Positions 1,923-16,865 of a stretch of 17,940 nt of DNA are shown here, piece by piece. Origin of the DNA: Treponema sp. (GTDB lineage Bacteria; Spirochaetota; Spirochaetia; Treponematales; Breznakiellaceae). The position numbers and the translations under genes are program-made. The notes beneath the pieces were generated by a model that ran no database searches, was not told where the DNA came from, and saw nothing but the letters and a program-made list of their open reading frames with translations. Location of the stretch: assembly GCA_020216655.1 (NCBI GenBank), contig JAIWNU010000125.1, positions 1 through 17,940 of the forward strand, written 5' to 3'. Every line of letters starts with the position of its first letter. Position 1 is the first letter of the stretch.

Positions 1923-2007
1923 AAAAGTACCATATCCTGCAAAACTAAACTGGTCAACCGCCATGTAAGTCCTAAGTTGCTAGAACTTCAGGGCCGTCGA
2001 TGTAAGC

Positions 2008-2036
2008 TTGATAAACCGCACTATTTGCGATATTTT
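2008..2036 (+). promoter_or_regulatory. Candidate sigma70 promoter for the outer-membrane protein gene
   Basis: TTGATA (2008-2013) and TATTTT (2031-2036) are separated by exactly 17 bp and match the consensus boxes at 5/6 and 4/6. Transcription would start around 2043, only about 6 nt before the ATG at 2049, and no Shine-Dalgarno lies there. The message would have a very short leader. Confidence 0.45.
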
Positions 2037-2048
2037 CTAACAACCGAT

Positions 2049-4970
2049 ATGAAAACACCTATTTTACTGACCCGTTTTGGCAGAGCAGGACTCGGGCTTT
2101 TATTCTTTTTTTTGGTGACCCTGGGGCCTATCCATGCCCAGACATTTAAGCCCTTTACATCCCTTGCGGTGCTTAAAACGGATCATTTTGATATTATCTT
2201 CGCTGAAAAATCCCGCCCTACGGCCTTAAGGCTCGCGGGTTTTGCCGATGAAGTCTACAAGGAAGTAACAGATCTTTTAGGTATTCAGCTGAGCGGCCCT
2301 ATCCCCGTAACCATAACAGCCGATACGGACCAGTTTAATGGGTACATGAATCCCCTGCCCTACCCGCATATCGTACTATTCGATACCCCCATGGATATCG
2401 AATGGACCGCATTCCAAGATCCGCTTCGTTCTCTTTTTTTGCATGAACTCACCCATGCGGTTTCTTTGAACAGCCGCGGCGGTATTGCCTCATTTTTACA
2501 CAGTCTATTTGGGTCCTGGGTTAATCCGACCTTTTTGACGGCCCCGCTTTTTATGGTCGAGGGGGTCACCGTTAGTTTTGAAAGCCTCGACGGCACAGGC
2601 CGGGCTTCTGATCCCCTTGTGGAGCAGACCATACGGCAGGCGGTGAATGAAAACCGGTCCCTCACGCCCTTCCAGGCAAGCGGTGTATATGACTATCCGC
2701 CCCTGCGACGGAGCTACTATGAATATGGGGGACTTTTTTCTTCCTGGCTCCAAAGAACATACGGCATGGATCGCTATGGCCAATTATGGCAGGCCATGGG
2801 ATCAGATGTTCCCCTATCCCTGTTTTATTACAATCACGGCTTTTATCGCCTTTTTAAAGACACCTACGGTGTCCCGCTCAAAGATGCCTGGCAGCAGTTT
2901 CTCGATTCCTATGCCACCACAAAGCCGGAGCCGCTAAAAGAGAGGGACATACTAATCCGGGAACTCCAAATAACCGGCCTAGCAGCCGCAGATTCGGTGG
3001 TGTACGGCATAGATGCAAAAGAAAATGTGCTCTTTGCCGTAGATTTAAGAAAAGAGGCGAATCAAGGGAAAAAACAGCGGATCCGTACAGTACCATCCTC
3101 TGCCTACGATCTTTCTCTTAACCAGGCGCAGAACAGGCTGCTTATTTCCTATTACCGGTACGCCGGCGACCTGGCCAGTGCGGTGGTAGGGGAGTACACC
3201 ACCGCGGGAAAAGCGACCGGCCGGGAATGGACTGGCATTTACAAGGCAAGCTATTTCCGGGATGGCATAGTCGGCATTGGATCCCGGCTCCATTATACGG
3301 ACCTGGTGTATGTGGACGGCCTAGGTCGCCGGCATGTTCTTGCCCAGGGAAACGATCGCCTTCTTTTTTCCAAACCAGTCCCCATAGACGACAGGCGGAT
3401 TGCCATCATTTTAAGCATCAAAGGACAGCGGCGGCTCGGCATCTTTAATGTCGAAGATGGTACTTTTTCCATCGTAAAGACCGGCCTCCCCGACGACGCT
3501 GAACGGTGGCGCTTTGTACGCAACCTGTCAGCCCGAGGTACAACCCTTTTCTTTTCCTACAACGACGATCATAGCTTTTACAGATGGGGAAAACTTGACC
3601 TGGATAATACTCATGCTGAGGAAGCCCTCTATTTTTCTGAAAGTAAGCGCTCTGGCGGCGTGCTGTTGCCGGTTCAAACGGCCGACAGTCTTGTGTACCG
3701 CGCTGCAGAAAGCACCTGGGACCAGCTCGTCCGCTATCCCCTTAACAAACTCGATAGGGCGAGCGGAATCTATTCGGCCTACCGGCTTGAACCCTTTAAT
3801 ATACAAGAAGGAGCAGAGCAGGTGGGAACAGCGGTACTCCCCTCCGCAGCCCAGAATAAACCGAAAGAAACAGCCTACAATCCTATCCGCTACCTGAACC
3901 CCCTCAAGTTCTGGCTCCCTGTGCCCCTTATCAATAATGTGGATAACAGCATCCGCATCGACGGCATGGGCATTATCACCTACCTCATGGATCCTACCGA
4001 CACCAATACGGTGCTCATTAACGCTGGGGGAGATCTGGTCGGAAAGCTCGGCTATTTTGATATTTCCTGGACCTCGCTGAACCTTGGGTTTCCGGTCTTT
4101 AGTTCCGTTTCGGATCAAATGGAAGCCATAGAGTCCCTATCTGGTTACACTGTGTACCGGGCAAGCAGAGCGCAGTTTTCTAGCCCCCTGGTCTTTAATC
4201 TGGGGGATAAAAACTTTAACCTCCATCTCATGCCTTCGCTTTCCCTGCTGCTTGCGGCCTTTGACCCCGGGGATGGAAGCAGCGCTTACCTGTGGACCTA
4301 TGAAAAACCCCTGTGGGCCTACGGCCTTAGTCTGGGGCTTTCCAATTTTTACCGGAAACCCTGGCAGCTTTTCGGAAACGGCGCAGGCCTTGACCTGTTT
4401 GCCCGCTCGGTGTGGAAAGGAAGCTCAAACCGTCTCGACGCAACACTTAAGGCGAGCCGGGAACCTTTGGCTTCCTGGTTTGCCCTGCGGGGAACAATCT
4501 ATGGAGCCTGGGACGAACGGGGGATGAGCCTGGACGGAAAAAACGTTTCCTACGGTAATGCCCCCTTTGCGGATGTGGCAGCTTCCGAATATGCTTCTCA
4601 GGCGCCTGCGAACCTCCCCTGGCTGGCAGGCGGAGAAGCGGAGTTAAAACTCTTTGCGATAGAAACCCAATCAAATATTTCCCACCTCTATGTAAACCGC
4701 CTTTTCGGCACCCTGGCCTACCGCGGGGTAATCTATGAGGCTACTGAAAAAAGCAATCTGGAAGATGCCGGCGAAGCCCTTGCCAATAGGCTGTACGGTT
4801 ACCATTCTATCATTGTAAAACTGGGAACCGTCGTATCGGCCACACCTATTACGTTAGCACCACTCCGTTATTCGCCCTTCTTCTGGGCTGCCATAAAGCT
4901 TTCTAACCTAAAGGACCAGGATGCAAGCAACGATTTCCAGCTAGGCTTTGCCCTTTCGTTTGAATGGTAG
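2049..4970 (+). CDS. Exported zinc-peptidase-like protein with probable beta-propeller and outer-membrane barrel
   Basis: This 973-residue protein starts at 2049 because a typical signal peptide follows: Met-Lys, a Phe/Leu-rich core (LLFFFLVTLG) and an AQ cleavage site near residue 31. Starting at the earlier ATG (1917) would bury that signal. An HELTH zinc motif spans residues 132-136, and VEG with Glu171 comes 35 residues later. This is the ligand spacing of gluzincin peptidases, closest to the peptidase MA-like family. The middle (about 300-620) has repeated short beta strands with Tyr/Asp/Gly turns, suggesting a propeller. The last 300 residues are rich in alternating aromatic and hydrophobic strands and end in FALSFEW, as outer-membrane barrels do. 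I infer a surface or outer-membrane protease, or a protein using a dead protease fold. Substrate unknown. Its 3' end overlaps the convergent exporter gene by 30 bp. Confidence 0.8.
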   Translation: MKTPILLTRFGRAGLGLLFFFLVTLGPIHAQTFKPFTSLAVLKTDHFDIIFAEKSRPTALRLAGFADEVYKEVTDLLGIQLSGPIPVTITADTDQFNGYMNPLPYPHIVLFDTPMDIEWTAFQDPLRSLFLHELTHAVSLNSRGGIASFLHSLFGSWVNPTFLTAPLFMVEGVTVSFESLDGTGRASDPLVEQTIRQAVNENRSLTPFQASGVYDYPPLRRSYYEYGGLFSSWLQRTYGMDRYGQLWQAMGSDVPLSLFYYNHGFYRLFKDTYGVPLKDAWQQFLDSYATTKPEPLKERDILIRELQITGLAAADSVVYGIDAKENVLFAVDLRKEANQGKKQRIRTVPSSAYDLSLNQAQNRLLISYYRYAGDLASAVVGEYTTAGKATGREWTGIYKASYFRDGIVGIGSRLHYTDLVYVDGLGRRHVLAQGNDRLLFSKPVPIDDRRIAIILSIKGQRRLGIFNVEDGTFSIVKTGLPDDAERWRFVRNLSARGTTLFFSYNDDHSFYRWGKLDLDNTHAEEALYFSESKRSGGVLLPVQTADSLVYRAAESTWDQLVRYPLNKLDRASGIYSAYRLEPFNIQEGAEQVGTAVLPSAAQNKPKETAYNPIRYLNPLKFWLPVPLINNVDNSIRIDGMGIITYLMDPTDTNTVLINAGGDLVGKLGYFDISWTSLNLGFPVFSSVSDQMEAIESLSGYTVYRASRAQFSSPLVFNLGDKNFNLHLMPSLSLLLAAFDPGDGSSAYLWTYEKPLWAYGLSLGLSNFYRKPWQLFGNGAGLDLFARSVWKGSSNRLDATLKASREPLASWFALRGTIYGAWDERGMSLDGKNVSYGNAPFADVAASEYASQAPANLPWLAGGEAELKLFAIETQSNISHLYVNRLFGTLAYRGVIYEATEKSNLEDAGEALANRLYGYHSIIVKLGTVVSATPITLAPLRYSPFFWAAIKLSNLKDQDASNDFQLGFALSFEW

Positions 4971-5939: not shown

Positions 5940-6431
5940 ATGAAAACCTGCCCCTGCGGTTCAGGAAAAGCCTACAGCGATTGCTGCGAAGCATATATTA
6001 CGGGGAAGAAAAAGGCCCCTACGGCGGAAGCTCTCATGAGGAGCCGCTACACCGCCTATGCGGAACATGCCATCAACTATATTGTGGATACCTGCGTTCC
6101 CGAAGGTCGGGACGATATTGATATGGAACAGACCCGCAGCTGGAGCGAGAAATCCCAATGGTTGGGGCTAAAAATTATTGGCACCGAAAAGGGCGGCCCC
6201 TCCGACACCGAAGGGGTGGTCGAGTTCGAAGCATCCTATGCTTTAGACGGCCTTAAGGACGTTCACCATGAACGGGCCTATTTTAAGAAAATTGATGGCG
6301 CCTGGCTCTATGACAAGGGAGAAATTGTCCCCACCACCATAGTCCGCGCTGCCCCCAAGGTAGGCCGGAACGATCCCTGCCCCTGCGGAAGCGGCAAAAA
6401 ATACAAGCACTGCTGCGGCAAAAACGCATAA
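5940..6431 (+). CDS. ychJ: YchJ-family protein with two SEC-C zinc motifs
   Basis: This 163-residue protein has the complete YchJ architecture. An N-terminal SEC-C motif has Cys4, Cys6, Cys15 and Cys16. A central NTF2-like domain includes [19 protein letters not shown] and ends at YDKGEI. A C-terminal SEC-C motif, [13 protein letters not shown], has Cys147, Cys149, Cys158 and Cys159. SEC-C motifs bind one zinc each and occur at the SecA C-terminus, where they contact SecB and ribosomes. For YchJ itself the role is not established; a part in protein handling is inferred from the motif only. The start at 5940 follows AGGAGG with 8 nt spacing, one of the best ribosome sites here. An earlier in-frame ATG at 5892 has none. 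The gene stands alone, with a hairpin after it. Confidence 0.93.
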
Positions 6432-6444
6432 AAGACATTCGCCT

Positions 6445-6479
6445 GCAGCCCCTCCACGAGGGGGCTGCCAGGGGGCTGC
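6445..6479. terminator. GC-rich hairpin between convergent ychJ and hydrogenase genes
   Basis: GCAGCCCC (6445-6452) is perfectly complementary to GGGGCTGC at 6461-6468 and again at 6472-6479, so the left arm can pair with either of two right arms. It lies in the 64-bp gap where two transcripts meet. No run of T follows on either strand, so it may stop or protect both messages but is not a classical intrinsic terminator. Confidence 0.45.
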
Positions 6480-6495
6480 TGCGTTATATTAACTT

Positions 6496-7971
6496 TTAAT
6501 GAGCGGGAGCCACCGCTTCATGAGCAGCTACTTGAGCGGTCTTGCTCGATTCTGCGATTTTTTTAAGCTGCATGGTGGCGACCTTAGGATTGGTGATCAC
6601 CGAGGGACCAGCCACACAGCCCCCCTGGCAGGCCATAACTTCCAAAAGGTTACCCGTATGCTTTCCCTCTGCCCATGCTTTAAGCACCTTAAAGCTATCT
6701 TTGGTAAGGCCGTCGATTGCCTCGCCCTTAAAGGGAATATGCGCGGGAAGATAGGCCTGTACGGCGCTGCTCACCCCTCCTGACCAGGCAAAACTGCGGC
6801 CCCCGGCTAATGCTTCTTCCGGAAGGGGCTGTTCTTCCATTTCCGCCACATCGATCCCCATGGCCACAAAGAGGGCGCCTATTTCTTCCACCGAAAGCAC
6901 ATAGTCCACCAGGGGGTCATCCATCCCCTCTTTCCGCTTCGCAAGACAGGGGCCGATAAAGACCCGCAGATGATCCGGTTTTTCCCGGGCCGCAAGTTCT
7001 GCCGTATAGTGCATGGGGGTCCTGGTATCCGAAACTCGCTCTTTTAGAGCTGGCAGGTGCTTACGGACCGCCTCCACATAGGCAGGACAGCAGCTCGTGG
7101 TCATAAAGGGCTCTCCCTTTTCCATCCGTTCGGCAAACTCGTGGGCTTCTTTTTCTGCGGTGATATCCGCCCCCCGGGCAACCTCGTAGACCGCATCAAA
7201 TCCAGAGCGCTCTAGGGCGGCAACGAGCTTACCCAGGGAGGCCTTAAACTGGCCTGCCACCGCCGGTGCAAAAAGGGCCGCCAGCTTTTCTCCCCGTTTT
7301 TTAGCCGCCAGCACATCGATAATCTGGGACTTATCCATCATGGCGCCGAAGGGGCATTCCCGCATACAATTGCCGCAAAAAATACACTTATCGTAATCGA
7401 TCCGTTCCTTACCGTTAGAATCCTTGGTAATCGCACCAACCGGACAGGCCTCCTCGCAGGGAACAGGAATTTTGATGATCGCATGGTAAGGACAGACCTG
7501 CTGGCAAATGCCACAGTTTACGCATTTTTCCTTATCAATAACCGCGTGCCCATCCACCATGCTGACCGCTTTTTTAGGACAGTTCATTACACAGGGCCGG
7601 GCAAGACAGCCCTGGCCCGCGTTGGTCACAAGGAATTGGGTTTTAACACAGGCGTTACAGGCCTCATCCAGAACCGTCAGAATGGGCGCCGTAATACGGT
7701 CCCGTGCAAGGGCTTCCCGTGCATAGGTCGCGAGCGGTGTCCCATCATCAACATACTGCTCTACAGAAAAGCCCAGCCGGGCGAGGATCCGGCTTTTTAA
7801 GATTTCCCGGTCATGGTACACACAGCACCGGATGGACTGGTACGACGGATCGCTGGTCATTTCGTAGGGGATCCGGTCAATATCCTTTTCCAGCCGGTCT
7901 TCCAGCATGAGCTTGATAATGGAAATCAAGAGCTCCCGTTTAACAAGGGCAGCATTGTTATTATAGTGCAT
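6496..7971 (-). CDS. [FeFe] hydrogenase, group B type, catalytic
   Basis: This 491-residue cytoplasmic protein should interconvert protons and H2 using ferredoxin-like electrons. The N-terminus has RCCVYHDRE (residues 48-56), seen in group B1/B3 enzymes, then a Cys-rich stretch (Cys105, 108, 122, 127, 131). Two 4Fe-4S ferredoxin motifs follow: Cys150/153/156/160 and Cys196/199/202/206. The H domain has TSCCPAY (Cys294, Cys295), GPCLAKRKE (Cys342) and ACQGGC (Cys448, Cys452). Cys295, 342, 448 and 452 would hold the cubane of the H-cluster and Cys294 is the proton-relay position, so all key residues are present. It is the last gene of the operon; its ATG overlaps the preceding stop by 1 nt, with AGGAG 7 nt upstream. 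No maturation genes (hydE, hydF, hydG) are in the window. The group B assignment is by motif recognition. Confidence 0.92.
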   Translation of the reverse strand: MHYNNNAALVKRELLISIIKLMLEDRLEKDIDRIPYEMTSDPSYQSIRCCVYHDREILKSRILARLGFSVEQYVDDGTPLATYAREALARDRITAPILTVLDEACNACVKTQFLVTNAGQGCLARPCVMNCPKKAVSMVDGHAVIDKEKCVNCGICQQVCPYHAIIKIPVPCEEACPVGAITKDSNGKERIDYDKCIFCGNCMRECPFGAMMDKSQIIDVLAAKKRGEKLAALFAPAVAGQFKASLGKLVAALERSGFDAVYEVARGADITAEKEAHEFAERMEKGEPFMTTSCCPAYVEAVRKHLPALKERVSDTRTPMHYTAELAAREKPDHLRVFIGPCLAKRKEGMDDPLVDYVLSVEEIGALFVAMGIDVAEMEEQPLPEEALAGGRSFAWSGGVSSAVQAYLPAHIPFKGEAIDGLTKDSFKVLKAWAEGKHTGNLLEVMACQGGCVAGPSVITNPKVATMQLKKIAESSKTAQVAAHEAVAPAH

Positions 7972-8234
7972 CAGCGTTCTCCTAATTTTTCTCCAATTTT
8001 TCGCAGTATGTCGGGTATGGTGGCCTGGGAAATCAGTTCCCCATCCACCAGGGCGAAGGGAGCCTTGCCATTACTTTTGTCCTTGCAGTACCCAAGGCAG
8101 GGAGATCCCTCCAATTCCACATTGCCTTTCCATTTGGCGGGGATATGATCGCCCAAAAGCAGCAGTTCCGAGCCGCCCATGACATAACAGGCGGTACCTG
8201 AACAGACAACAACCTTAATAACCTTCTCATTCAT
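7971..8234 (-). CDS. Thioredoxin-like [2Fe-2S] ferredoxin (NuoE C-terminal type), second copy
   Basis: An 87-residue protein with the four cysteines of thioredoxin-fold [2Fe-2S] ferredoxins: Cys11 and Cys16 in CSGTAC, and Cys46 and Cys50 in CLGYC. The fold matches the C-terminal domain of NuoE/HndA subunits, but the usual N-terminal helical domain is absent. It probably passes electrons to or from the hydrogenase encoded directly downstream, with which it is translationally coupled (stop and start overlap by 1 nt). GAGGAG lies 7 nt before the start, which is 11 nt after the phosphatase stop. It differs from the first copy in the operon by a longer, Gly-rich loop after the first Cys pair and by KDKSNGKAPFALVDG in place of KDGPIVIIDG, so the two are likely specialised for different partners. 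Confidence 0.87.
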   Translation of the reverse strand: MNEKVIKVVVCSGTACYVMGGSELLLLGDHIPAKWKGNVELEGSPCLGYCKDKSNGKAPFALVDGELISQATIPDILRKIGEKLGER

Positions 8235-8245
8235 AGAATGCTCCT

Positions 8246-9487
8246 CTATATAAAACGGATGTGTATTTCCTTAAGATACTTTTCTTCCAGCAATCCCGCT
8301 ATACGTTTGATGATATTCCTGCGTATTTCCAGTTCTACCGGCATGGACGGATCCTGGTGGGCTTCGTTAATCTTGGTCCCCACCACAAATTCGATACAGT
8401 CCGAGTTTAATAAGAGTTCCACAAGCTGGGTCGCCGGGTTGGACCTAAGCCGGTCAGGGCTCGCCGGATTTTCCAGAAGTTCCGCTGCGCGGCCCAGGGT
8501 GATGATTCCCTCGGTAACCAGATCTGCTCCCTCCATAAGGGAAGCGGGCGGAATGACCGGGTCTATATTTTTTAAGTTCACTTTGATGGATAGTCCTAGC
8601 TCACGGGCAACAATGCTTGCCGTGGTTCCGCCGCAAAGGATCTTGGAACCCTGAAAATCCCGGAACATCCGGGCCATTTCCGCATCCCGCCCCGGATCGA
8701 TGGAAGGCCCCGACATGAGAAGCAGCCGCCGGGGCTTACGGAAATAAATAACCGCGCAGGTAATGTCATCCTTAGGCTGATACGCATCGTGGGATTCCGC
8801 TTCTTGTACGACCGCCTGGGCAAGCCTGCGGGCAGAAATATCCGGCGTTTCTTTGAGGAGCTTCATAATATAGGACTGGACCCGGGGCACGCCCCAGCCT
8901 AAAGGATAGACTTTACTACCCATACCAGACTGGGAGACCCCATCGGAAAAAAACACAAGCCGGTCTCCGCTTTTAGCTTCAAATTCGCTGTAGTGCATAA
9001 CTGCCCGGGATAGGAGCGACACCGATCCGCTTCTTAAAGGGGCTTGCGCACGCTGCCTCCGTGAACCAGGCCGGTCGACCGCAATATCGTGCTTGAGCGG
9101 TTCAAGTAGGACCGGCTCAGCGGCCTGACGGAAAAGAAGATAGGCCGGATTGTCATATTCAATGATTTTTACTCTGCTCTGGCTGTCTATATCCGCCAGG
9201 GTAAAGGTTGCGTAACTAATGCCCCGCTCCTTGCAAACCGGCAGGGTCTTCATAATTATCCGGGCAGCCTTGCGGAGCGGAATGTCCTCCGCCACAAAGC
9301 GGGCGGCCATGGTGGCAGTCAGGGTTGCCAGGACTCCGGCCTTAATGCCCGACCCGAGTCCATCGGAAAGGACTGAAATAATGCGGCCATCGTCGGTTTT
9401 CCGAGAGAGAAATACGTCTCCCTCGGCGCCCTGGCCCTGTTTTTTTCGGGCAAAATGGGCAACCTCGATAAAAATGGATCCATTCAT
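8246..9487 (-). CDS. PP2C/SpoIIE-type serine phosphatase with extra C-terminal domain
   Basis: A 413-residue protein with a PPM (SpoIIE) phosphatase domain at residues 1 to about 250. Metal-binding motifs are intact: GDVFLS (Asp24), SDGLGSGIKA (Asp42), FSDGVSQSG (Asp182) and KDDITCAVIYF (Asp240/241). Such enzymes remove phosphate from Ser/Thr of partner proteins, classically anti-anti-sigma factors, under control of a sensor. Residues 253-413 are a separate domain (SGPSIDPGRD, then LCGGTTASIVARELG and TEGIITLGRAAELL), which I associate with phosphatases located beside sensory hydrogenases but cannot name. Its start overlaps the sensory hydrogenase stop (ATGA), with GAGAGG 7 nt upstream, so the two are translationally coupled. 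I infer it is the output of that sensor. No anti-sigma or STAS gene lies in the window, so the target is unknown. Confidence 0.9.
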   Translation of the reverse strand: MNGSIFIEVAHFARKKQGQGAEGDVFLSRKTDDGRIISVLSDGLGSGIKAGVLATLTATMAARFVAEDIPLRKAARIIMKTLPVCKERGISYATFTLADIDSQSRVKIIEYDNPAYLLFRQAAEPVLLEPLKHDIAVDRPGSRRQRAQAPLRSGSVSLLSRAVMHYSEFEAKSGDRLVFFSDGVSQSGMGSKVYPLGWGVPRVQSYIMKLLKETPDISARRLAQAVVQEAESHDAYQPKDDITCAVIYFRKPRRLLLMSGPSIDPGRDAEMARMFRDFQGSKILCGGTTASIVARELGLSIKVNLKNIDPVIPPASLMEGADLVTEGIITLGRAAELLENPASPDRLRSNPATQLVELLLNSDCIEFVVGTKINEAHQDPSMPVELEIRRNIIKRIAGLLEEKYLKEIHIRFI

Positions 9488-11247
9488 GGCTGGGCCTCTC
9501 CGCCGCTGCGGGATGAGCCAGTATGCTCAAAGGATTCGATAATTGAGTTAAGGGTTGCCTCGGTTTCTGCCGCATTCTCACCGAGCAGAAAGGCGATTTT
9601 TTGTACCACCGCCAGGTTTCGGGTTATTACTTTACGGGCCTGGGAAACAATACGGTCCTTTTGTACCCAGGGATCGGTAACATCCTGGAAGACGCCCCCG
9701 GCATAGGCCCCCCGTTCAATCCCAAAAATGGTCCCATGGAGGATCCGGTTGTTAAACCGTATGTCCCGGTCAATTGCCTCTGCCCCGTCGAGCACATCAA
9801 GAAAGTACCGGGAAAAGGGGAGGAGTTTTTCCAGGGCCGCACCTTCCAGTCCCGGCTTAGCCTCCCAGAGCTGCAGGGCCTCTTCGCCCAGGAGGCGGGC
9901 AAAGTTGTAATTGCATTCCACAATGGAAAGCCGGGCATCCACGATAACAACTCCGCTTGGAATTGCCCGGATAAGGCCGTTAGCCTTTTTCTGCGCCAGT
10001 TTACGCATATAGGACACGCACATATCCGATTCCGCCCTGCCAGCCAGCATGGCCCGGGCAAAGTCCCGGCAGGTATCGTAGCCGCAGCCGCCGCAGTTAA
10101 GCTCATCTTCCCGGTTGTACTTACCAGTCCGCCGCAGGGCCTCCGCCAATTCCTGTTCGCTGCAGCTTTCCGCCGCTACGGCCCTGCCCGTCCACCGCTG
10201 CGCCAGAACCGGTCCATGGCCCTCCAAAGTTTTCACCAGATCCCCCGCCGACCGGTTCTGGCCGTAGTCCAGCACAGAGAGCCGTTTATTTATAGTGCCG
10301 GTACGGTTTTTTGACCGGGGCCCGTTAATGCAGCCCCCGGGACAGGCAAGCAGCTCTAAAAAAAGCGGTTCCTTGAGCCTTCCCTTACTTAATGCGTCCT
10401 CTACATCATCCAGAGCGCGGGCAATTTCCTCTATGCCGGAAAAGGACATAAACCGGACCCCTTCGGGAACCTGCCAGCTTTTTATAGCCGCAATCATACC
10501 TCCATCCACGGGGTACAAGGCACCTTTGCCGGCCCGTTCGGGGATAATGCGAACATCAGGAGCCGCTTTTACCAGGGGGAGGTGAATATTTGCTTCCGAG
10601 AGCCAGGTCCGCAGGTCTTCAAAATCGATGGCCACAGCCACATCTTGGCCCTGTTCGTCGGCCTCCTGTTTTTTGGAAATACAGGGACCAATAAATACAA
10701 CCGCGCAATCATCGCCATACAGACGGCGAAGCATCCTGGCCTGGGATAAAAGGGGGCTTGCAAGGCTCGTTATCCTGTCAGCAAAGGCAGGCCGGTATTT
10801 GGCGATAAAATCCACCACCGTAGGACAGGCGGAGCTCATCAATATGGATCCCCCCTGGGCTTGACTTAATTGAAGCGCCACTTCCTTTGCGACCAGGTCC
10901 GCCCCCCAGGCCGTTTCGGAAACCGCCCAGAATCCGAGGTGCACCAATGCCGAGGCCATGCGATCCAGGTCTATGCCGGGAAATTCGGATGCGAAAGAGG
11001 GCGCCAGGGACGCGATAACCCGTTTTCCCGATTCAAGGAGTTTCCGGGCCCGGCCCAGATCGTTTCGAACCTTTTTGGCCCCCGCTGGGCAAACTTCCAC
11101 ACAGTGGCCGCAGAGAATACAGAGATCCCTCAATACCGCGGCTCTTCCGTTTTCCACCCGTATGGCTTTAACCGTGCAGTGCCGGACACATTTGTAGCAG
11201 TCCTGGCAAACGGTTTTTTCTGTATAAATGGGATTAAGGACATCCAT
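9484..11247 (-). CDS. Sensory-type [FeFe] hydrogenase homologue (HydS-like) with Fe-S and PAS domains
   Basis: A 587-residue soluble protein. Two ferredoxin 4Fe-4S motifs (Cys14/17/20/24, Cys43/46/49/53) precede an H domain with SSACPTVV (Cys141), GPCISKKQE (Cys189) and ACPGGC (Cys302, Cys306). All four H-cluster ligands are kept, but Ala140 replaces the proton-relay Cys, a change reported in putative sensory hydrogenases such as HydS of Thermotoga maritima. Next comes a 4Fe-4S domain (Cys385, 388, 393, 410), a PAS domain (about 422-525) and a C-terminal helix (530-575) likely used to contact a partner. It likely senses H2 or redox state and signals to the phosphatase encoded directly downstream (4-nt overlap). 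The start at 11247 lies 6 nt after the preceding stop with a poor ribosome site, so coupling to the upstream gene is likely. The order resembles hfs-type clusters of thermophilic clostridia. Confidence 0.9.
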   Translation of the reverse strand: MDVLNPIYTEKTVCQDCYKCVRHCTVKAIRVENGRAAVLRDLCILCGHCVEVCPAGAKKVRNDLGRARKLLESGKRVIASLAPSFASEFPGIDLDRMASALVHLGFWAVSETAWGADLVAKEVALQLSQAQGGSILMSSACPTVVDFIAKYRPAFADRITSLASPLLSQARMLRRLYGDDCAVVFIGPCISKKQEADEQGQDVAVAIDFEDLRTWLSEANIHLPLVKAAPDVRIIPERAGKGALYPVDGGMIAAIKSWQVPEGVRFMSFSGIEEIARALDDVEDALSKGRLKEPLFLELLACPGGCINGPRSKNRTGTINKRLSVLDYGQNRSAGDLVKTLEGHGPVLAQRWTGRAVAAESCSEQELAEALRRTGKYNREDELNCGGCGYDTCRDFARAMLAGRAESDMCVSYMRKLAQKKANGLIRAIPSGVVIVDARLSIVECNYNFARLLGEEALQLWEAKPGLEGAALEKLLPFSRYFLDVLDGAEAIDRDIRFNNRILHGTIFGIERGAYAGGVFQDVTDPWVQKDRIVSQARKVITRNLAVVQKIAFLLGENAAETEATLNSIIESFEHTGSSRSGGEAQP

Positions 11248-11253
11248 AACAAT

Positions 11254-11514
11254 CTACCAATCCATAGCAGCCAGGAGATCCTGCAGTACCATAGGGCTCA
11301 CATGCCGATGAATTTCTCCGTCTATAATTACAATGGGCCCATCTTTGCAGAAGCCTTCGCAGAGGGTACCCGTCACTTCCGCGTCCGCAAGCTCCGCCCG
11401 AATTTTCTTTTCCTGAATCAGGCGCTGAACCAGTTCGGCATTCACGCTGTTCCCCCGGGAAAAACAGGAGCTTCCCATGCAAATAACAATCCGATGCGGC
11501 TGTGCTGCAGTCAT
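11254..11514 (-). CDS. Thioredoxin-like [2Fe-2S] ferredoxin (NuoE C-terminal type), first copy
   Basis: An 86-residue protein with the [2Fe-2S] cysteines Cys12 and Cys17 (CMGSSC) and Cys52 and Cys56 (CEGFC), spaced as in the thioredoxin-fold domain of NuoE and the clostridial 2Fe-2S ferredoxin. No NuoE N-terminal helical bundle is present. It is the first gene of the hydrogenase operon and likely exchanges electrons with the sensory hydrogenase that follows 6 nt later. The start at 11514 has AGAGGA 4 nt upstream and lies just behind a good promoter (11533-11561). A longer reading from 11592 would place that promoter inside the gene and add a Lys-rich stretch unlike the family, so I reject it. 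Confidence 0.87.
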   Translation of the reverse strand: MTAAQPHRIVICMGSSCFSRGNSVNAELVQRLIQEKKIRAELADAEVTGTLCEGFCKDGPIVIIDGEIHRHVSPMVLQDLLAAMDW

Positions 11515-11532
11515 ATCATCCTCTCGTGCTTT

Positions 11533-11561
11533 TATATATAATTTTTTATCGATAAAGTCAA
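11533..11561 (-). promoter_or_regulatory. Sigma70-like promoter of the hydrogenase operon
   Basis: On the minus strand TTGACT (11561-11556, 5/6) and TATATA (11538-11533, 4/6) are 17 bp apart. Transcription would begin near 11526, giving a leader of about 12 nt that contains the AGAGGA ribosome site of the first gene. The 83 bp between the two divergent starts holds no obvious repressor palindrome and none of the GGTACT half-sites found at 13508. Confidence 0.6.
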
Positions 11562-11597
11562 GACGATATGTTTTAATTTGTTGACCTTTCATAGGCC

Positions 11598-12842
11598 ATG
11601 GCCTACTATTACCACATGTATCGCTGGGACATCGTAAAGCAAATAAAACCGCTCTGCCTGTTCATCAATATAAGCCTTTTTTATATTGCATTTTTTCAAT
11701 ATATCATCGATGGACGTCCAGAGGGGATTCCCGATTTATGGGATGCCCAGTTTTATTTTCTCATTGCGCTGGCCTTTATATTTTCCCTACTTGCCGTAGT
11801 TCTTGCAGGGCGGCCTGTTGCTGCGATTCCCGGCTTGTTACTTTTAGTTACCATTGTAATCGCGGTCACCCCCGAAGGAAGCCGAATTGGTATCCGGCTT
11901 TCCCTGTTTGCCGCCGCAGCAGCTACCTCCGGCTTTTGTATTCCCTTTCCCTTTAATGCGATAATGATTCCTGCAACCATTTTTGCAACCCTTGCATCGA
12001 TTCGTACCGAAATTGCCTGGGATTTCTGGCTTATTAAACCTGATTATTCTGAACGGTTGGGAAGCATTTTTGTAATCGGTGCAGTCGGTATTATTTCCAC
12101 AACCCTTTCTGCCGCCATCAGGACGATCAAAGAACAGCAAACCGAAATCGGGAACCTGGAAAATACAATTGCCCAGCTTACTACCGCAAATATTGGGTTT
12201 CAGGAATACGCAAAATATATAGAAGAACAATCCCGAGAAGTGGAGCGAAAACGGATTACCAAGGAGATTCACGACATTATCGGTTATACCCTCACAACCG
12301 TAATCATGCTGTTGCGGGAAGCAAAACTCTATATAACTGAAAATTCGCATATCAAAGAAGTTCTCGATCAAGCAGATCAACATTGCCAAAGCGGACTCGA
12401 AGAAACACGGCAGTTTTTAAGAATCCTAAGGTCGATTGAAACAACCAAAATCACTTTAGTGGATGCGATTCGTAAATTAGCAAGTTCTTTCCAGAATGCT
12501 ACTGGTGTACAAGTTCAAATTGATTTTGGAAATGCTATTTATCCCGTAAATGAAAATATACAAAATACGGTCATCAGACTATTGCAGGAGGGGATGACCA
12601 ACGCCCTGCGGCACGGAAAGGCAAGCCGCATAACGATCTCGCTTTGGATACATGAAGGGATGTTAATTATAGATATGATGGATAATGGCCGCGGTACTAC
12701 TCAATTCAACGAAGGTATCGGATTAGCGGGTATGAGAGAAAGCATCTCTGCTCTGGGCGGACAATTTACCGCCGGTCCCATATCCGGCGGTTTTAAACTG
12801 ACGGCCCATATTCCCATGCAAGGGGGTAATAATGAATCATAA
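11598..12842 (+). CDS. Sensor histidine kinase, HisKA_3 (DesK/NarL) type
   Basis: A 414-residue inner-membrane kinase. The first 175 residues hold about six hydrophobic segments (near 17-37, 51-70, 73-90, 97-115, 118-135, 155-173) with short loops and no large periplasmic domain, so the signal may be sensed within the membrane. A coiled coil runs from 175 to 217. The dimerisation box RKRITKEIHDIIGYTL carries the phospho-accepting His225 next to Asp226, as in the DesK family. The ATP-binding domain shows EGMTNALRHG (Asn335), DNGRG (362-366) and GIGLAGMRE (373-381). It would phosphorylate the response regulator encoded next, whose start overlaps its end by 11 nt. The ribosome site before 11598 is weak (TAGG, 2 nt spacing); the in-frame ATG at 11616 has none. 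The gene is divergent from the hydrogenase operon. Confidence 0.93.
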   Translation: MAYYYHMYRWDIVKQIKPLCLFINISLFYIAFFQYIIDGRPEGIPDLWDAQFYFLIALAFIFSLLAVVLAGRPVAAIPGLLLLVTIVIAVTPEGSRIGIRLSLFAAAAATSGFCIPFPFNAIMIPATIFATLASIRTEIAWDFWLIKPDYSERLGSIFVIGAVGIISTTLSAAIRTIKEQQTEIGNLENTIAQLTTANIGFQEYAKYIEEQSREVERKRITKEIHDIIGYTLTTVIMLLREAKLYITENSHIKEVLDQADQHCQSGLEETRQFLRILRSIETTKITLVDAIRKLASSFQNATGVQVQIDFGNAIYPVNENIQNTVIRLLQEGMTNALRHGKASRITISLWIHEGMLIIDMMDNGRGTTQFNEGIGLAGMRESISALGGQFTAGPISGGFKLTAHIPMQGGNNES

Positions 12843-13503
12843 CACCATCAGAATAATGCTTGCAGACGATCAGGTGCTCTTTATCCAAAGCCTCAAACGG
12901 GTAATTGAAAGTCTGGATCAAGATATAGAAGTGGTCGGTATTGCCTATGACGGGGAAGAGGCAATTCGAATGGCCCGGGAGCTCCAACCCGATATAACCA
13001 TTCTGGATGTGCGCATGCCTAAAATTGATGGTGTCCACGCGGTTGAACATATCCGGAATCTTCACCCTCAGAGCAAAATCATCATGCTTACCACCTTTGA
13101 TAATGACGATTATGTTCATGAAGCTTTGGCTAAAGGGGCCTGCGGTTATCTCCTAAAAGATATTGAACCCCAAAAACTGGTAAACGCCATACGGGCAGTC
13201 GCGGCCGGAACGGTTCTCATGTCAGAAACTATTGCAAATAAAATTATTGCCCAAATGATTTCACAAACACAGGCAAAACCAAGGTTGATGAAAAGTTATC
13301 CGGACTGGTACCACGAATTAAGTTATAGAGAACGAGAAGTGGCGGTATTGCTTGCAAAAGGACTAGATAACCATGAAATATCCAACACCATGTTTCTCGC
13401 AGAACAAACAGTAAAAAATCATATTTCATCTTTGTATAAAAAACTAAATGTAAAAGATCGTACTTTGCTCATACAAAAACTAAAGCCCCTTTTGGAACAA
13501 TGA
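12832..13503 (+). CDS. NarL/FixJ-family response regulator
   Basis: A 223-residue DNA-binding regulator. The receiver domain (1-125) has Asp12 and Asp13, the phosphorylation site Asp59 in ILDVRMP, Thr87 and Lys109, all the conserved switch residues. A LuxR-type helix-turn-helix (163-220) contains LSYREREVAVLLAKG and TVKNHISSLYKKLNV, the recognition helix region. GGGGG sits about 6 nt before the start, and the 11-nt overlap with the kinase gene ensures paired production. Partner kinase and regulator are both complete, so a working two-component system is expected. The three-half-site array that starts 5 bp after its stop is the obvious candidate operator, which would make the downstream sugar transporter its target; the divergent hydrogenase operon is the other neighbour. 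The signal is not known. Confidence 0.94.
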   Translation: MNHNTIRIMLADDQVLFIQSLKRVIESLDQDIEVVGIAYDGEEAIRMARELQPDITILDVRMPKIDGVHAVEHIRNLHPQSKIIMLTTFDNDDYVHEALAKGACGYLLKDIEPQKLVNAIRAVAAGTVLMSETIANKIIAQMISQTQAKPRLMKSYPDWYHELSYREREVAVLLAKGLDNHEISNTMFLAEQTVKNHISSLYKKLNVKDRTLLIQKLKPLLEQ

Positions 13504-13507
13504 CACC

Positions 13508-13537
13508 GGTACTAAAATCAGTACCAAAATCGGTACT
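13508..13537 (+). promoter_or_regulatory. Three alternating GGTACT half-sites, likely operator
   Basis: GGTACT (13508-13513), its reverse complement AGTACC (13520-13525) and GGTACT again (13532-13537) are separated by two identical 6-bp spacers, AAAATC. Each neighbouring pair is a perfect inverted repeat, and the half-sites repeat every 12 bp, slightly more than one helical turn. A TAAAAT box (13555-13560) lies 17 bp beyond the third site, so that site occupies the -35 position, where the match to TTGACA is poor (2/6). This is the layout of an activator-dependent promoter. A regulator dimer array, most simply the response regulator encoded just upstream, could bind here. The downstream pair could also fold into a weak 6-bp hairpin followed by TTT. 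Confidence 0.55.
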
Positions 13538-13640
13538 TTTAAGCATTCCCAACTTAAAATACCAATCTTAACATGTAAAACAGAAACACGGCTTTTGGCC
13601 GCAGCTTACCGACTACCTATTAAGATGGAGGAACCCTTTT

Positions 13641-14972
13641 ATGAAGAAATTACTAGGCCTTGCACTTGTCTTTTTAAGCCTTTCCGGGCAGCTCTTTGCA
13701 GCAGGCTCACAGGATACCGCCTCGACCGCACAGAAGAAACCAGTAACATTAACCCTTTGGACCCACGAAGATCCAAACCGGCAAAAAATGGAAGAACAGT
13801 TTGCTGCGGAATACATGGCTCAAAATCCCCATGTTACCATTAAATACAGTGTATTTCCTTCCACAAAAATTCAGGATCTCATTTCATCTGCCTATGCCGC
13901 GGGGAATGCCCCCAGTATTTGGAACCTTGAACTCCAGAAAGCCTATCCTCTCTTTATGCAAGGACTGGTAGCGCCTATCCCAGTACAGGCTCTGGGCTTT
14001 AAAAATGAACAGGCCCTTATCGATTCCTACCTTCCAGGGATGCTCGACCCGGTTACCGATAAGGACGGAAAATGGTTCGGGAAAAAGGGTAAAATTTATG
14101 GCCTCCCCCTCGAAATGGTTAACTACTGCATTTATCTGAACAAGAAAATCTTCCGGGATGCAGGGCTGGATCCAGAAAAGGACTATCCCAAGACGTGGGA
14201 AGATGTGATGAAAGTTTCTGAAAAAATCGTAAAACGGAACGGTGACATTATTATCCGCCGGGGCTTTGATTTCCGATACGGAGATTACCTTATTTCCTGG
14301 GTACCCATGGTTGAACAGCTGGGCGGAAAGGTAGTCAGCGATGACGGAAAAGAAGCAATTGTAAACACCGAAGCATGGATTAAGGCATTGAAGTTTATGC
14401 AGGAATGGGGTCCCAACGGTAAAAATCTTGGCGGACCCACATACCCTGTGGCCCGGAAAATCTTTGACAACGACCGGGACGAAATTGCCATGCACCTTTC
14501 CGGGCTCTATCAAGAAGCCCGCATGAAAACCGCCAATCCAGATTTCTACAACAGCAAGGACTGGATGGTCATTCCTTATCCGGTTTTTAAGGGAGGAAAG
14601 GATATCAGCAACACCTACTATTTCCAGTACTATATGGTCAATTCCAAGATTCCTGAAAATGAACAGATTGAAGCCTGGAAATTCGTTGGTTATATGCTGA
14701 GCCATGGGGATATGTACCTGGAAAAGGTAGCCCTCACCCAGCCGACCAAGAAAGTATTTGAAGGAGAGGTATTCAAGAGCATGCCCTACAGCAATGTTTT
14801 TGCAAACGATCTAAAACGGGCCAAGGTAGTGTACCATTCTTCTTTCAGCTGGCGGGTCAACGAACTTATTAAAGAGGCAATCGAAAATGTTATGATGAAC
14901 AAGGTAGATCCTGCTGTTGCGGTTGCCAAACTTAAAAAGGACACACAGGCTTTGGTAGATGAAAATCGCTAA
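13641..14972 (+). CDS. ABC transporter sugar-binding protein, family 1
   Basis: A 443-residue extracytoplasmic solute-binding protein. The signal peptide is MKKLLGLALVFLSLSGQLFA, with a likely signal peptidase I cut after Ala20 or Ala21. No Cys is present, so it is not a lipoprotein and should be free in the periplasm. The mature protein begins with TLTLWTHEDPNRQ, and IYGLPLEMVNYCIYLNKKIFRDAGL is the hinge-region pattern of the oligosaccharide/glycerol-phosphate (MalE/UgpB) class. GGAGG precedes the ATG by about 9 nt. The sugar cannot be predicted from sequence. It heads a three-gene operon with two permeases; the promoter region is the 137 bp upstream, which contains the GGTACT array. A stable hairpin follows the stop, which may allow more binding protein than permease to be made. 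Confidence 0.93.
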   Translation: MKKLLGLALVFLSLSGQLFAAGSQDTASTAQKKPVTLTLWTHEDPNRQKMEEQFAAEYMAQNPHVTIKYSVFPSTKIQDLISSAYAAGNAPSIWNLELQKAYPLFMQGLVAPIPVQALGFKNEQALIDSYLPGMLDPVTDKDGKWFGKKGKIYGLPLEMVNYCIYLNKKIFRDAGLDPEKDYPKTWEDVMKVSEKIVKRNGDIIIRRGFDFRYGDYLISWVPMVEQLGGKVVSDDGKEAIVNTEAWIKALKFMQEWGPNGKNLGGPTYPVARKIFDNDRDEIAMHLSGLYQEARMKTANPDFYNSKDWMVIPYPVFKGGKDISNTYYFQYYMVNSKIPENEQIEAWKFVGYMLSHGDMYLEKVALTQPTKKVFEGEVFKSMPYSNVFANDLKRAKVVYHSSFSWRVNELIKEAIENVMMNKVDPAVAVAKLKKDTQALVDENR

Positions 14973-15004
14973 GTAAAAACCTTTAAACAGAAACCTTTTA
15001 GTAA

Positions 15005-15027
15005 GCCGGCAGAGTAAGTCTGCCGGC
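15005..15027 (+). other. Strong intercistronic hairpin after the binding-protein gene
   Basis: GCCGGCAGA (15005-15013) and TCTGCCGGC (15019-15027) form a perfect 9-bp stem with a 5-nt loop. No T-run follows (CCTATTCG), so full termination is unlikely. The hairpin is best read as a 3' stabiliser or partial stop that raises binding-protein mRNA over permease mRNA. A short direct repeat, AAACCTTT, lies just before it (14977-14984 and 14991-14998). Confidence 0.7.
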
Positions 15028-15057
15028 CCTATTCGCTGCTAATCGGAGGAACAATTC

Positions 15058-15978
15058 ATGAACATAGAAAAGCAAGTTAAAAAACGGAAAGGGGTGGAAC
15101 AAGTTCAAGCTCGATGGGGCTGGTATTTTGTTATTCCAGCGCTTATCTTTTTTTCTGTTTTTTCATTTTATCCGATCATCAATGCATTTACCCTTAGCTT
15201 TTTTAAAAAGAATTTGATATCTCCCCTGCCGCCCCGTTTTACGGGTTTAAACAATTATATATTTGTGCTCCAGTCGCCCGATTTCTGGAATTCGGTAAGG
15301 GCCACTATAACCTTTACCCTGGGGACCTTTATACCCTTGGTACTGATGAGTCTTCTCATAGCCATACTTATTACCATACAGGGAAAACATTTCAGAATCT
15401 GGCAGCTTTTATATTATTCACCCGCAGTCCTTTCCTCCGCGGTCGCAGCCCTGATTTGGATGCTTATTTTTACGCCCACTGGGATTGCTAATCAATTTAT
15501 AAATGCTATGAAACAAACAAGCGGTGTAGATATGCGCTGGCTTTCCAGCGGTGAAATGGTTCAGCTATCCACCATGATTGTTTATTTTTGGAAATACATA
15601 GGATACTTTACCGTACTTTATGTGACTGGCATTACCAAAATTCCTGCAGTGATCTATGAAGCCGCTACTATTGATGGAGCAAGCAGATCCCAGGCTTTCT
15701 TTAAAATCACGCTTCCCCTGCTCAAACCAACTACAGCCTTAGTTTCTATTATGGCAATGCTCCAGTGTCTTAAAACATTTTCGACCCAGTTTCTATTTAC
15801 TCAGAGCGGTGCACCAAAAGCCCCTATTAATGTCATCACTTTAAATATTTACAACACGGCCCTCAAGGAATACAACGTGGGCAGAGCGAGTGTGATGAGC
15901 ATACTCTTATTTGTAGCCATGCTGATTCTCACCATTATCCAGCTCAAAATATCACGCAGCGATGAAGTCACCTATTAA
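15058..15978 (+). CDS. ABC sugar transporter permease, MalF/UgpA type
   Basis: A 306-residue inner-membrane protein with six predicted membrane segments (about 21-43, 81-107, 116-139, 170-190, 226-245, 278-297). The cytoplasmic EAA loop at 201-220 reads EAATIDGASRSQAFFKITLP, the full consensus that docks the ATPase. With the second permease it forms the channel through which sugar delivered by the binding protein passes. GGAGG lies 8 nt before the start. The stop is 10 nt from the next gene's start. No ATP-binding subunit is encoded nearby, so a shared MsmK/MalK-like ATPase from elsewhere is probably used, as is common for this transporter class. Confidence 0.94.
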   Translation: MNIEKQVKKRKGVEQVQARWGWYFVIPALIFFSVFSFYPIINAFTLSFFKKNLISPLPPRFTGLNNYIFVLQSPDFWNSVRATITFTLGTFIPLVLMSLLIAILITIQGKHFRIWQLLYYSPAVLSSAVAALIWMLIFTPTGIANQFINAMKQTSGVDMRWLSSGEMVQLSTMIVYFWKYIGYFTVLYVTGITKIPAVIYEAATIDGASRSQAFFKITLPLLKPTTALVSIMAMLQCLKTFSTQFLFTQSGAPKAPINVITLNIYNTALKEYNVGRASVMSILLFVAMLILTIIQLKISRSDEVTY

Positions 15979-15988
15979 GGAGCCCAAC

Positions 15989-16864
15989 ATGCCAAGCAAA
16001 ACTATCGCCGGCGTTTTTGCTAAACATCGTATTCAAAATAGTATAGATATTATAATACGCATCTTCCTACTTCTATTTGCCCTTGTAATTTTGGTACCCC
16101 TGGTATTTATGATTACCGCATCATTTATGCCTTCCGCTGAAATAACCAGAATGCCTTATCGCTGGATTCCTTCCCGTATTGCATGGAACAATTTTTATAG
16201 GGCTTTGGCGGGAAATGACGGAAATTTTACCTATATCAGAAACATTTTAAATTCTCTTTTTGTATCGCTAACCGTCGCATTTACCACGGTGATTTTGTCC
16301 TCTGTTACCGGATACAGCCTCGCAAAGTTTAATTTTAAGGGTAAGAATATTGTATTCATGTCGATTATGATGACTATGATGATCCCCTTTGAAACGATCA
16401 TGGTCCCTATGTATATGGTTGCACTTAAACTGGGTCTGCAAAACAGCTACCAGGGTCTGATTGTTCCCTTTATGATGAATGCCTTTGGGGTGTTTTTAAT
16501 GAAGCAGTACCTCCAAACCTTCCCCAAAGACATTATAGATGCGGCTCGTATCGATGGCTGTTCAGAACCAAAAATTTTCCGCAGTATTGTCCTGGTAAAC
16601 TCTGGCCCTGCGGTGGCAAGTCTCGCTATTTTAACGTTCAGACAGCAATGGGATAATCTTCTATGGCCCCTTATGATCGCCCAGGATAAGAAATTTAAAA
16701 CTATTCCAACCTATATAGTGAGTTTTGCTGAGGAGAAACTTTCCGATGAAGGGGCAATGATGGCTGCTGCTCTTATTGCCAGTATCCCAGTAATCATTAT
16801 GTTTTTAACCTTGTCCAAATATTTTGTCGGCGGTTCTTCGGTATATTCTTCAGGAAAAGAATAA
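15989..16864 (+). CDS. ABC sugar transporter permease, MalG/UgpE type
   Basis: A 291-residue inner-membrane protein with six hydrophobic segments; the first reads IRIFLLLFALVILVPLVFMI. The EAA loop is DAARIDGCSEPKIFRSIVL, somewhat divergent at its end, where the usual Leu-Pro is Leu-Val. The motif sits about 100 residues from the C-terminus as expected. I chose the ATG at 15989 because AAGGAG precedes it by 6 nt. An earlier ATG at 15962 overlaps the first permease, has no ribosome site and adds nine residues. The stop is separated by one base from the stop of the convergent PHP gene, so no terminator fits between them and the two transcripts must overlap or end within each other. Confidence 0.93.
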   Translation: MPSKTIAGVFAKHRIQNSIDIIIRIFLLLFALVILVPLVFMITASFMPSAEITRMPYRWIPSRIAWNNFYRALAGNDGNFTYIRNILNSLFVSLTVAFTTVILSSVTGYSLAKFNFKGKNIVFMSIMMTMMIPFETIMVPMYMVALKLGLQNSYQGLIVPFMMNAFGVFLMKQYLQTFPKDIIDAARIDGCSEPKIFRSIVLVNSGPAVASLAILTFRQQWDNLLWPLMIAQDKKFKTIPTYIVSFAEEKLSDEGAMMAAALIASIPVIIMFLTLSKYFVGGSSVYSSGKE

Positions 16865-16865
16865 C

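Follow-up and report, generated by a model that had tools for sequence, protein, structure and literature searches.

How might a hydrogenase that probably acts as a hydrogen sensor pass its signal to a phosphatase encoded directly behind it? The question is raised by five genes on the minus strand (positions 11514-6496) of a 17,940-nucleotide (nt) stretch of Treponema sp. DNA (assembly GCA_020216655.1, contig JAIWNU010000125.1), the whole of which is called the window here. They encode two small [2Fe-2S] proteins (fs1 and fs2), a HydS-like putative sensory [FeFe]-hydrogenase (HydS), a PP2C-type phosphatase and a group B [FeFe]-hydrogenase. In related loci HydS and the phosphatase form a nearly invariant pair, and HydS ends in a conserved tail that accompanies the phosphatase. 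From these sequence comparisons it is proposed, with a probability of a little over 0.6, that the tail docks in trans on the phosphatase and sets its activity as part of a split RsbU/SpoIIE-like switch, the target of which would lie in electron disposal. The features concerned are as follows.

11254..11514, minus strand: fs1, thioredoxin-like [2Fe-2S] protein, partner of HydS, 86 amino acids (aa); PF01257 33.8 bits.
9484..11247, minus strand: HydS-like putative sensory [FeFe]-hydrogenase, 587 aa, in the HfsB position; PF02906 141 bits, PF04060 41.5, PAS_8 19.7.
9514..9648, minus strand: C-terminal tail of HydS, residues 534-578, proposed phosphatase-coupling helix; held-out hidden Markov model (HMM) test and searches in two phyla.
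8246..9487, minus strand: PP2C/SpoIIE-type Ser/Thr phosphatase, 413 aa, in the HfsC position; PF07228 62.5 bits (cut-off 25).
8249..8737, minus strand: unannotated C-terminal domain of the phosphatase, residues 251-413, predicted Rossmann-like fold.
7971..8234, minus strand: fs2, [2Fe-2S] protein, partner of the group B hydrogenase, 87 aa; PF01257 24.1 bits, just below the cut-off of 24.8.
6496..7971, minus strand: group B [FeFe]-hydrogenase, predicted catalytic, 491 aa, in the HfsD position; TIGR04105 546.6 bits, PF02906 185.3, own-genome search.

Relatives were collected by scanning one genome per species with the phosphatase, and the best 80 of 574 confirmed matches were used; by record title, these loci span about a dozen phyla. 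HydS was found directly upstream of the phosphatase in 79 of the 80 (78 by script, L095 by reading), and L138 is an orphan phosphatase in a region without HydS on the phosphatase strand. A group B hydrogenase gene follows downstream in 32 loci, a group-A-like hydrogenase, assigned by a crude score rule, is present in 18 (one locus enters both counts), and 31 show neither type, five of these being cut close behind the phosphatase. The near-invariant unit is HydS with the phosphatase, while the adjoining catalytic hydrogenase varies. An earlier reading of the window made from its sequence alone (the sequence-only reading) had treated sensor and catalytic hydrogenase as one unit, which these counts do not support; the link that it drew between sensor and phosphatase proved far stronger than a single window could reveal, and its two [2Fe-2S]/hydrogenase pairs recur elsewhere, an fs2-type gene preceding 33 of 35 group B genes and an fs1-type gene 61 of 77 HydS genes (58 of 78 with other filters). 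Clustering of the neighbours gave 11 clusters that occur in at least five of the 80 loci; from one representative each, recurrent neighbours were read as HydF-, HydE-, Rex-, hydrogenase-subunit-, ABC-transporter- and response-regulator-like, among others. The idea that a kinase or STAS gene regularly adjoins the pair was discarded, none being recognised by reading in these clusters. Three loci of the Marinifilum type (L126, L128, L132) hold two HydS-phosphatase pairs in tandem, L099 and L102 have a second, very divergent pair after the group B hydrogenase, and in L211-L215 and L224 a gene for a Rex-like redox repressor stands directly upstream of the fs1-HydS-phosphatase set.

The domain order of HydS is two [4Fe-4S] clusters, H-domain, Cx2Cx4Cx16C iron-sulfur (FeS) motif, PAS and a C-terminal tail of 43 conserved residues with the consensus VIxKNLxTVQxIAxLLGENAAETExxLNSIIES. 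Across an alignment of 93 HydS sequences, of which that of the window is one, the mean consensus fraction reaches 0.63 in the tail and 0.62 in the N-terminal clusters, is lower in PAS (0.51) and in the H-domain (0.52) and stands at 0.69 in the FeS motif. For a tail HMM, 46 of 92 tails served as training set, that of the window included, and the model was run on 5039 open reading frames (ORFs) of 100 loci. It matched 95 paired pieces among the 102 HydS-like pieces (45 training, 50 held out) and missed two paired ones, both held out and from frame-split genes; L095 and L140, unpaired by script, also matched (the gene call is wrong in L095, and hydB intervenes in L140). None of the three unpaired HydS-like proteins (L118, L136, L139) matched, and outside the HydS pieces the only matches below E 0.01 were two PAS proteins linked to carbon monoxide dehydrogenase (CODH). 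Held-out and training rows are homologous, so that the test shows consistency.

A survey of 392 Spirochaetota genomes was carried out with the phosphatase at E <=1e-40 and the tail at E <=1e-3; the alignment contains Spirochaetota rows, so that association was tested and not detection. Each search returned 87 matches: phosphatase pieces from 83 genomes in one case, tails from 86 in the other. A phosphatase on the same strand lies at most 2000 nt downstream of 84 of the 87 tails, and at most 250 nt downstream of 83 (median gap 31 nt); the one beyond 250 nt, in G310, has hydB between tail and phosphatase. All 83 phosphatase genomes carry a paired tail. The tail of G008 is directly followed by a divergent phosphatase below the cut-off. 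Weak hits in G129 and G156 (E about 1e-4) were dropped as matches in unrelated proteins, which we take to be ScpB-like.

The second phylum searched was that of the L102 genome (39 genomes, one of which supplied two alignment rows). Here all 13 phosphatase genomes have the tail, and a phosphatase piece is listed for 15 of the 18 tails; the others are in G432 (112 nt from a contig end), the second tail of G399 (beside the divergent phosphatase of L099) and the second of G438. In the Spirochaetota survey, the one phosphatase piece listed without a tail is a fragment in G340; the rest of it lies on a different contig, where the tail is present. The G380 phosphatase is split by a frame change. In G349 one locus holds a decayed N-terminal phosphatase part with no tail beside it (L141:6715-7410; phosphatase C-terminal domain with decayed catalytic part, then fs2-hydB), the true pair lying elsewhere on the same contig. 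No description of the tail was met in the open-licence literature, in which no search was aimed at the tail by sequence.

Parts of HydS have been exchanged in nature with the tail retained. The gene before the phosphatase in G003, G039 and G061 encodes a protein of 173-186 aa, PAS plus tail without a hydrogenase domain, in loci that contain a gene of the CODH family; the domain content was read with Pfam for G003, whose proteins have near copies in G039 and G061. In G326 (1.2 Mb, 94 percent complete, 90 contigs), a reduced genome with two other [FeFe]-hydrogenase matches, the gene upstream of the phosphatase encodes 67 aa, essentially the tail alone; its congener G318 has a full HydS of 598 aa. 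The phosphatases of the CODH-linked loci form one clade (100/99), and those beside an adhE-kinase pair, described below, form another (100/98).

The sensor itself keeps its cofactor ligands. H-cluster cysteines 141, 189, 302 and 306 are present in 93, 92, 92 and 93 of the 93 HydS sequences, and cysteines 385, 388, 393 and 410 of the Cx2Cx4Cx16C motif (the PF04060 match of the window protein) in all 93. Group A reference residues were taken from PMC8163306 and placed on the window protein by motif. At the proton-path position the window protein has A140, with Ala in 73 of the 93 sequences and still Cys in 7; the two Met positions beside the diiron site are G187 and L300 (Gly in 85 at the first, Leu in 67 and Met in 6 at the second). 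Putative sensory hydrogenases have been described with this residue pattern (PMC8163306). Because the H-cluster cysteines are kept and the proton-path Cys is replaced, HydS should bind the H-cluster cofactor yet turn over slowly; from the residues and the published work we infer H2 as its signal. PAS_8 scores in the window protein below its cut-off of 21.8, and homologue L140 gives PF00989 at 28.4 (cut-off 22.6).

In the phosphatase, D24, D42, D182 and D240, the aspartates that bind metal in PP2C enzymes, are present in all 103 sequences compared, that of the window among them. The nearest solved folds to its AlphaFold2 (AF2) model include the SpoIIE, RsbU and RsbX phosphatases; the first PP2C strand begins at residue 6, and an N-terminal regulatory linker was not found. 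The sequence-only reading had named a HydS-type sensor with a PAS domain and a PP2C/SpoIIE phosphatase: the retained H-cluster cysteines, the replaced catalytic proton-path Cys and the metal aspartates bear it out, and family searches agree with its domain identities, PAS being weak in the window protein and clear in L140. The C-terminal domain of the phosphatase is conserved and predicted to be Rossmann-like. Foldseek returned no PDB match for it at E below 1e-3; the assignment comes from VIA matches in a second look and concerns the fold only. The domain might bind a metabolite. A stand-alone family of this domain was set aside provisionally: among 120 listed of 363 short proteins, 106 had no contig above 10 kb and several are named partial, and most look truncated.

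The switch proposed here would work as follows. HydS would be an H2- or redox-sensing, catalytically weakened [FeFe]-hydrogenase, the signal of which would run from the H-domain through the C-terminal [4Fe-4S] motif and PAS to the 43-residue, probably helical, tail. Acting in trans, the tail would bind the PP2C phosphatase, product of the next gene downstream, and set its activity, so that sensor and phosphatase would act like an RsbU/SpoIIE phosphatase cut in two at the linker. The phosphatase would then alter a phosphorylated target that governs electron disposal, through expression or activity of the neighbouring hydrogenase and perhaps, where present, through AdhE. A linker supplied in trans is suggested because the phosphatase lacks one of its own and the upstream gene ends in a conserved stretch, overlapping or nearly touching the phosphatase gene; the tail would serve as coupling helix, a detached counterpart of the linker that drives RsbU in cis. 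RsbT activates RsbU in that the linkers form a coiled coil and the phosphatase dimerises (PMC12143880). The docking, H2 as ligand, the sign of the effect and the substrate are what we infer. As to the sign, ethanol goes up in Thermoanaerobacterium saccharolyticum when hfsA or hfsB is deleted, and loss of hfsB also increases hydrogenase activity; ethanol does not rise on deletion of the whole operon, hfsC or hfsD, and the rise from hfsA or hfsB deletion needs hfsC and hfsD present (PMC5707799). Because the hfsA and hfsB deletions raise ethanol, the effect of the sensor on output may by analogy be negative, a restraint.

Some points weigh against this proposal. Overexpression of hfsD alone gives an ethanol phenotype without hfsABCD (PMC11837493), so the phosphatase is not strictly needed for it. 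The tail contains an invariant glycine, which may break a helix; the tail-only gene is a single case from a draft in 90 contigs; and the association of tail and phosphatase could reflect common descent of a two-gene unit instead of docking. More broadly, the loci may represent a widespread class of split PAS-linker-phosphatase switches under gas or redox control in many phyla, in which a portable sensor tail is read by a separate PP2C with a Rossmann-like ligand domain and inputs are exchangeable (H2 via HydS, a CODH-linked PAS protein, or the tail alone); this generalisation is held at slightly less than even odds.

Among the alternatives, the one that fares best concerns the target. The phosphatase may dephosphorylate a STAS-type anti-anti-sigma protein and so change transcription by sigma-factor partner switching, an explanation that is held as tentative. 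It agrees with the SpoIIE, RsbU and RsbX folds nearest to the phosphatase, with a two- to threefold rise of the adhE transcript on hfsA or hfsB deletion (PMC5707799) and with a 111-fold fall of the Ruminococcus albus cluster in co-culture (PMC6776011). Set against it, no STAS- or RsbW-like protein was recognised by reading among the 11 neighbour clusters, no STAS search having been made. The host genome gave 13 SpoIIE and 30 HATPase_c_2 matches, so a distant STAS/RsbW partner is possible.

A further alternative, held as unlikely, makes AdhE the direct substrate of the phosphatase and an APH-fold kinase encoded beside adhE its dedicated opponent; gene order speaks for it in part. A distinct APH-fold kinase-like protein (PF01636) was found at E below 1e-60 in 13 of the 392 Spirochaetota genomes, and its gene directly follows adhE in all 12 genomes in which the upstream side is visible; Leadbettera azotonutricia is one organism with this arrangement. 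It directly precedes fs1-HydS in five of the 13 genomes, phosphatase and hydB coming next (hydB before the phosphatase in G310); it is not adjacent in six (about 14 kb apart in G212), and the contig ends at it in G304 and G038. The order Rex-AdhE-kinase-fs1-HydS is seen on a contig of a Syntrophobacterales-labelled metagenome-assembled genome (MAG), and adhE without the kinase precedes the fs1-HydS-phosphatase unit in G203 and G185. Wide Spirochaetota loci contain adhE in 6 of 40 cases, a figure that gives no rate since the loci were hand-picked (20 odd hits, 20 spread). In T. saccharolyticum, hfsB deletion raises NADH-linked alcohol dehydrogenase (NADH-ADH) but not NADH-linked aldehyde dehydrogenase (NADH-ALDH) activity, with a hint from the authors of post-transcriptional control; adhE transcript changes, which speak the other way, also occur there (PMC5707799). 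In R. albus, adhE, sensor and hydrogenase lie in a putative eight-gene cluster (PMC6776011).

Several genomes that bear the pair count against AdhE. At E 1e-100 it was not found in 7 of 15 genomes searched, all seven with the pair: the window's draft genome, its single-contig congener G194, G392 and four others. Drafts may miss genes; G194 is a single contig. AdhE as universal target was therefore rejected, although it may be the target in certain lineages. Fermentation genes as the target, suggested by the sequence-only reading, are likewise plausible where adhE adjoins and unlikely here, AdhE not having been found in the genome of the window or in the congener. No phosphatase match was obtained in seven of the 13 kinase genomes (G341, G355, G331, G046, G304, G060, G038), a point against a strict coupling of kinase and phosphatase, and APH-fold proteins are often small-molecule kinases.

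Equally unlikely is that HydS and the phosphatase do not touch but are co-inherited through expression with the hydrogenase, HydS serving as redox enzyme or electron shuttle while the phosphatase is controlled otherwise, for example by a ligand of its C-terminal domain: the H-cluster cysteines kept in at least 92 of 93 HydS sequences, a conserved Rossmann-like domain that might bind a metabolite and the suggestion in a 2026 paper that HfsABC might be a working hydrogenase without HfsD (PMC13277313) would fit, whereas the tail alone beside the phosphatase in G326, PAS-tail proteins without hydrogenase in three CODH loci and a pair that stays constant while the adjoining hydrogenase varies do not.

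The five genes of the window were confirmed at the coordinates of the sequence-only reading, with the same order and gaps (6, -4, 11 and -1 nt in transcribed order); the overlap of 4 nt is that of the hydS and phosphatase genes. The fs1 translation carries CxxxxC...CxxxC, and the group B1 hydrogenase family TIGR04105 scores well above its cut-off of 450. An alternative fs1 start, an ATG at 11592, lies upstream; by eye, a ribosome-site-like stretch favours 11514. Promoter-like sites within 6300-11800 numbered 5 (3.9 +/- 2.2 by chance) and terminator-like sites 8 (6.9 +/- 2.4 by chance); separate operons, which were considered and not adopted, are supported neither way by scans at chance level. 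The operon is taken as real because its core gene order is kept across large phylogenetic distances, which chance does not give.

The host draft genome (2.66 Mb, 89.6 percent complete; window on contig C137) has a phosphatase 98 percent identical to that of a MAG named Gracilinema caldarium (L060). It gave five Fe_hyd_lg_C matches, two of them in the window; two frames outside it, of 593 and 595 aa, were read by eye as group A. A third sensory-type [FeFe]-hydrogenase is encoded at L005:325-2469 on contig C152, in a 719-aa frame with H-domain and FeS motif and then, by eye, a chemotaxis-receptor-like region; it resembles HydDB C2.

Divergent from the operon, genes for a histidine kinase and a NarL-type response regulator occupy 11598-13503, starting 83 nt from it. 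The same two genes stand beside the operon in L060 and G194 (kinase 894 and 659 bits, regulator 465 and 395 bits); at E 1e-5 no kinase homologue was found in the other related loci compared. Kinase and regulator may control the operon in this genus. The G+C content is 0.48-0.57 over the first 12 kb of the window and 0.42-0.45 beyond (12000-17000), a part that holds a solute-binding/permease set and the greater portion of the kinase and regulator genes. A 1017-aa ORF at 1917-4970 had no Pfam match at E 0.01, and a tRNA-Ser(tga) at 17856-17942 reaches the window end.

As far as the literature was read, the tail rule, the natural part-swaps and the C-terminal domain of the phosphatase are new, and together they make the signalling question directly testable. 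A 43-residue tail that tracks the phosphatase is a small element to bind, delete or swap, the natural tail-only and PAS-tail versions are ready constructs, and for the opposing reaction the adhE-kinase pair of some treponemes offers a concrete candidate.

By its sequence the locus is of a kind already known, the phosphatase-linked putative sensory [FeFe]-hydrogenases of HydDB group C3, combining domains of the group C type with a neighbouring Ser/Thr phosphatase. The role of C3 is given as undetermined by HydDB, whose description, in the excerpt available, mentions neither the tail nor the C-terminal domain nor PAS-tail relatives linked to CODH (PMC5037454). The likeness to hfs clusters that the sequence-only reading had seen agrees with the published order of hfsABCD in T. 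saccharolyticum, HfsB (PAS hydrogenase)-HfsC (phosphatase)-HfsD (catalytic hydrogenase) (PMC5707799, PMC11837493); the likeness is one of published gene order, from HfsB to HfsD. The window differs in its second small [2Fe-2S] gene and in that AdhE, the proposed output there, was not found in its genome; HfsA is described as resembling no known protein, except partly hydrogenase large subunits (PMC11837493). The R. albus cluster likewise brings together sensor, phosphatase, hydrogenase and AdhE and responds strongly to H2 removal; its catalytic enzyme is called group A1 (PMC6776011), whereas that of the window is group B. A Ser/Thr kinase near it is reported second-hand (PMC5707799); in the genome of the window neither AdhE nor the kinase-like gene was found. 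TamHydS of Thermoanaerobacter mathranii (group D) and TmHydS of Thermotoga maritima (group C) share the Cx2Cx4Cx16C motif and the loss of the group A proton-path Cys, TamHydS having no PAS domain (PMC8163306). With RsbU/RsbT and SpoIIE the phosphatase shares the PP2C fold, and in those systems the signal reaches the phosphatase through helices (PMC12143880). The window phosphatase carries an extra C-terminal domain, and where RsbU has its linker in the same chain, the linker proposed here would come from another protein.

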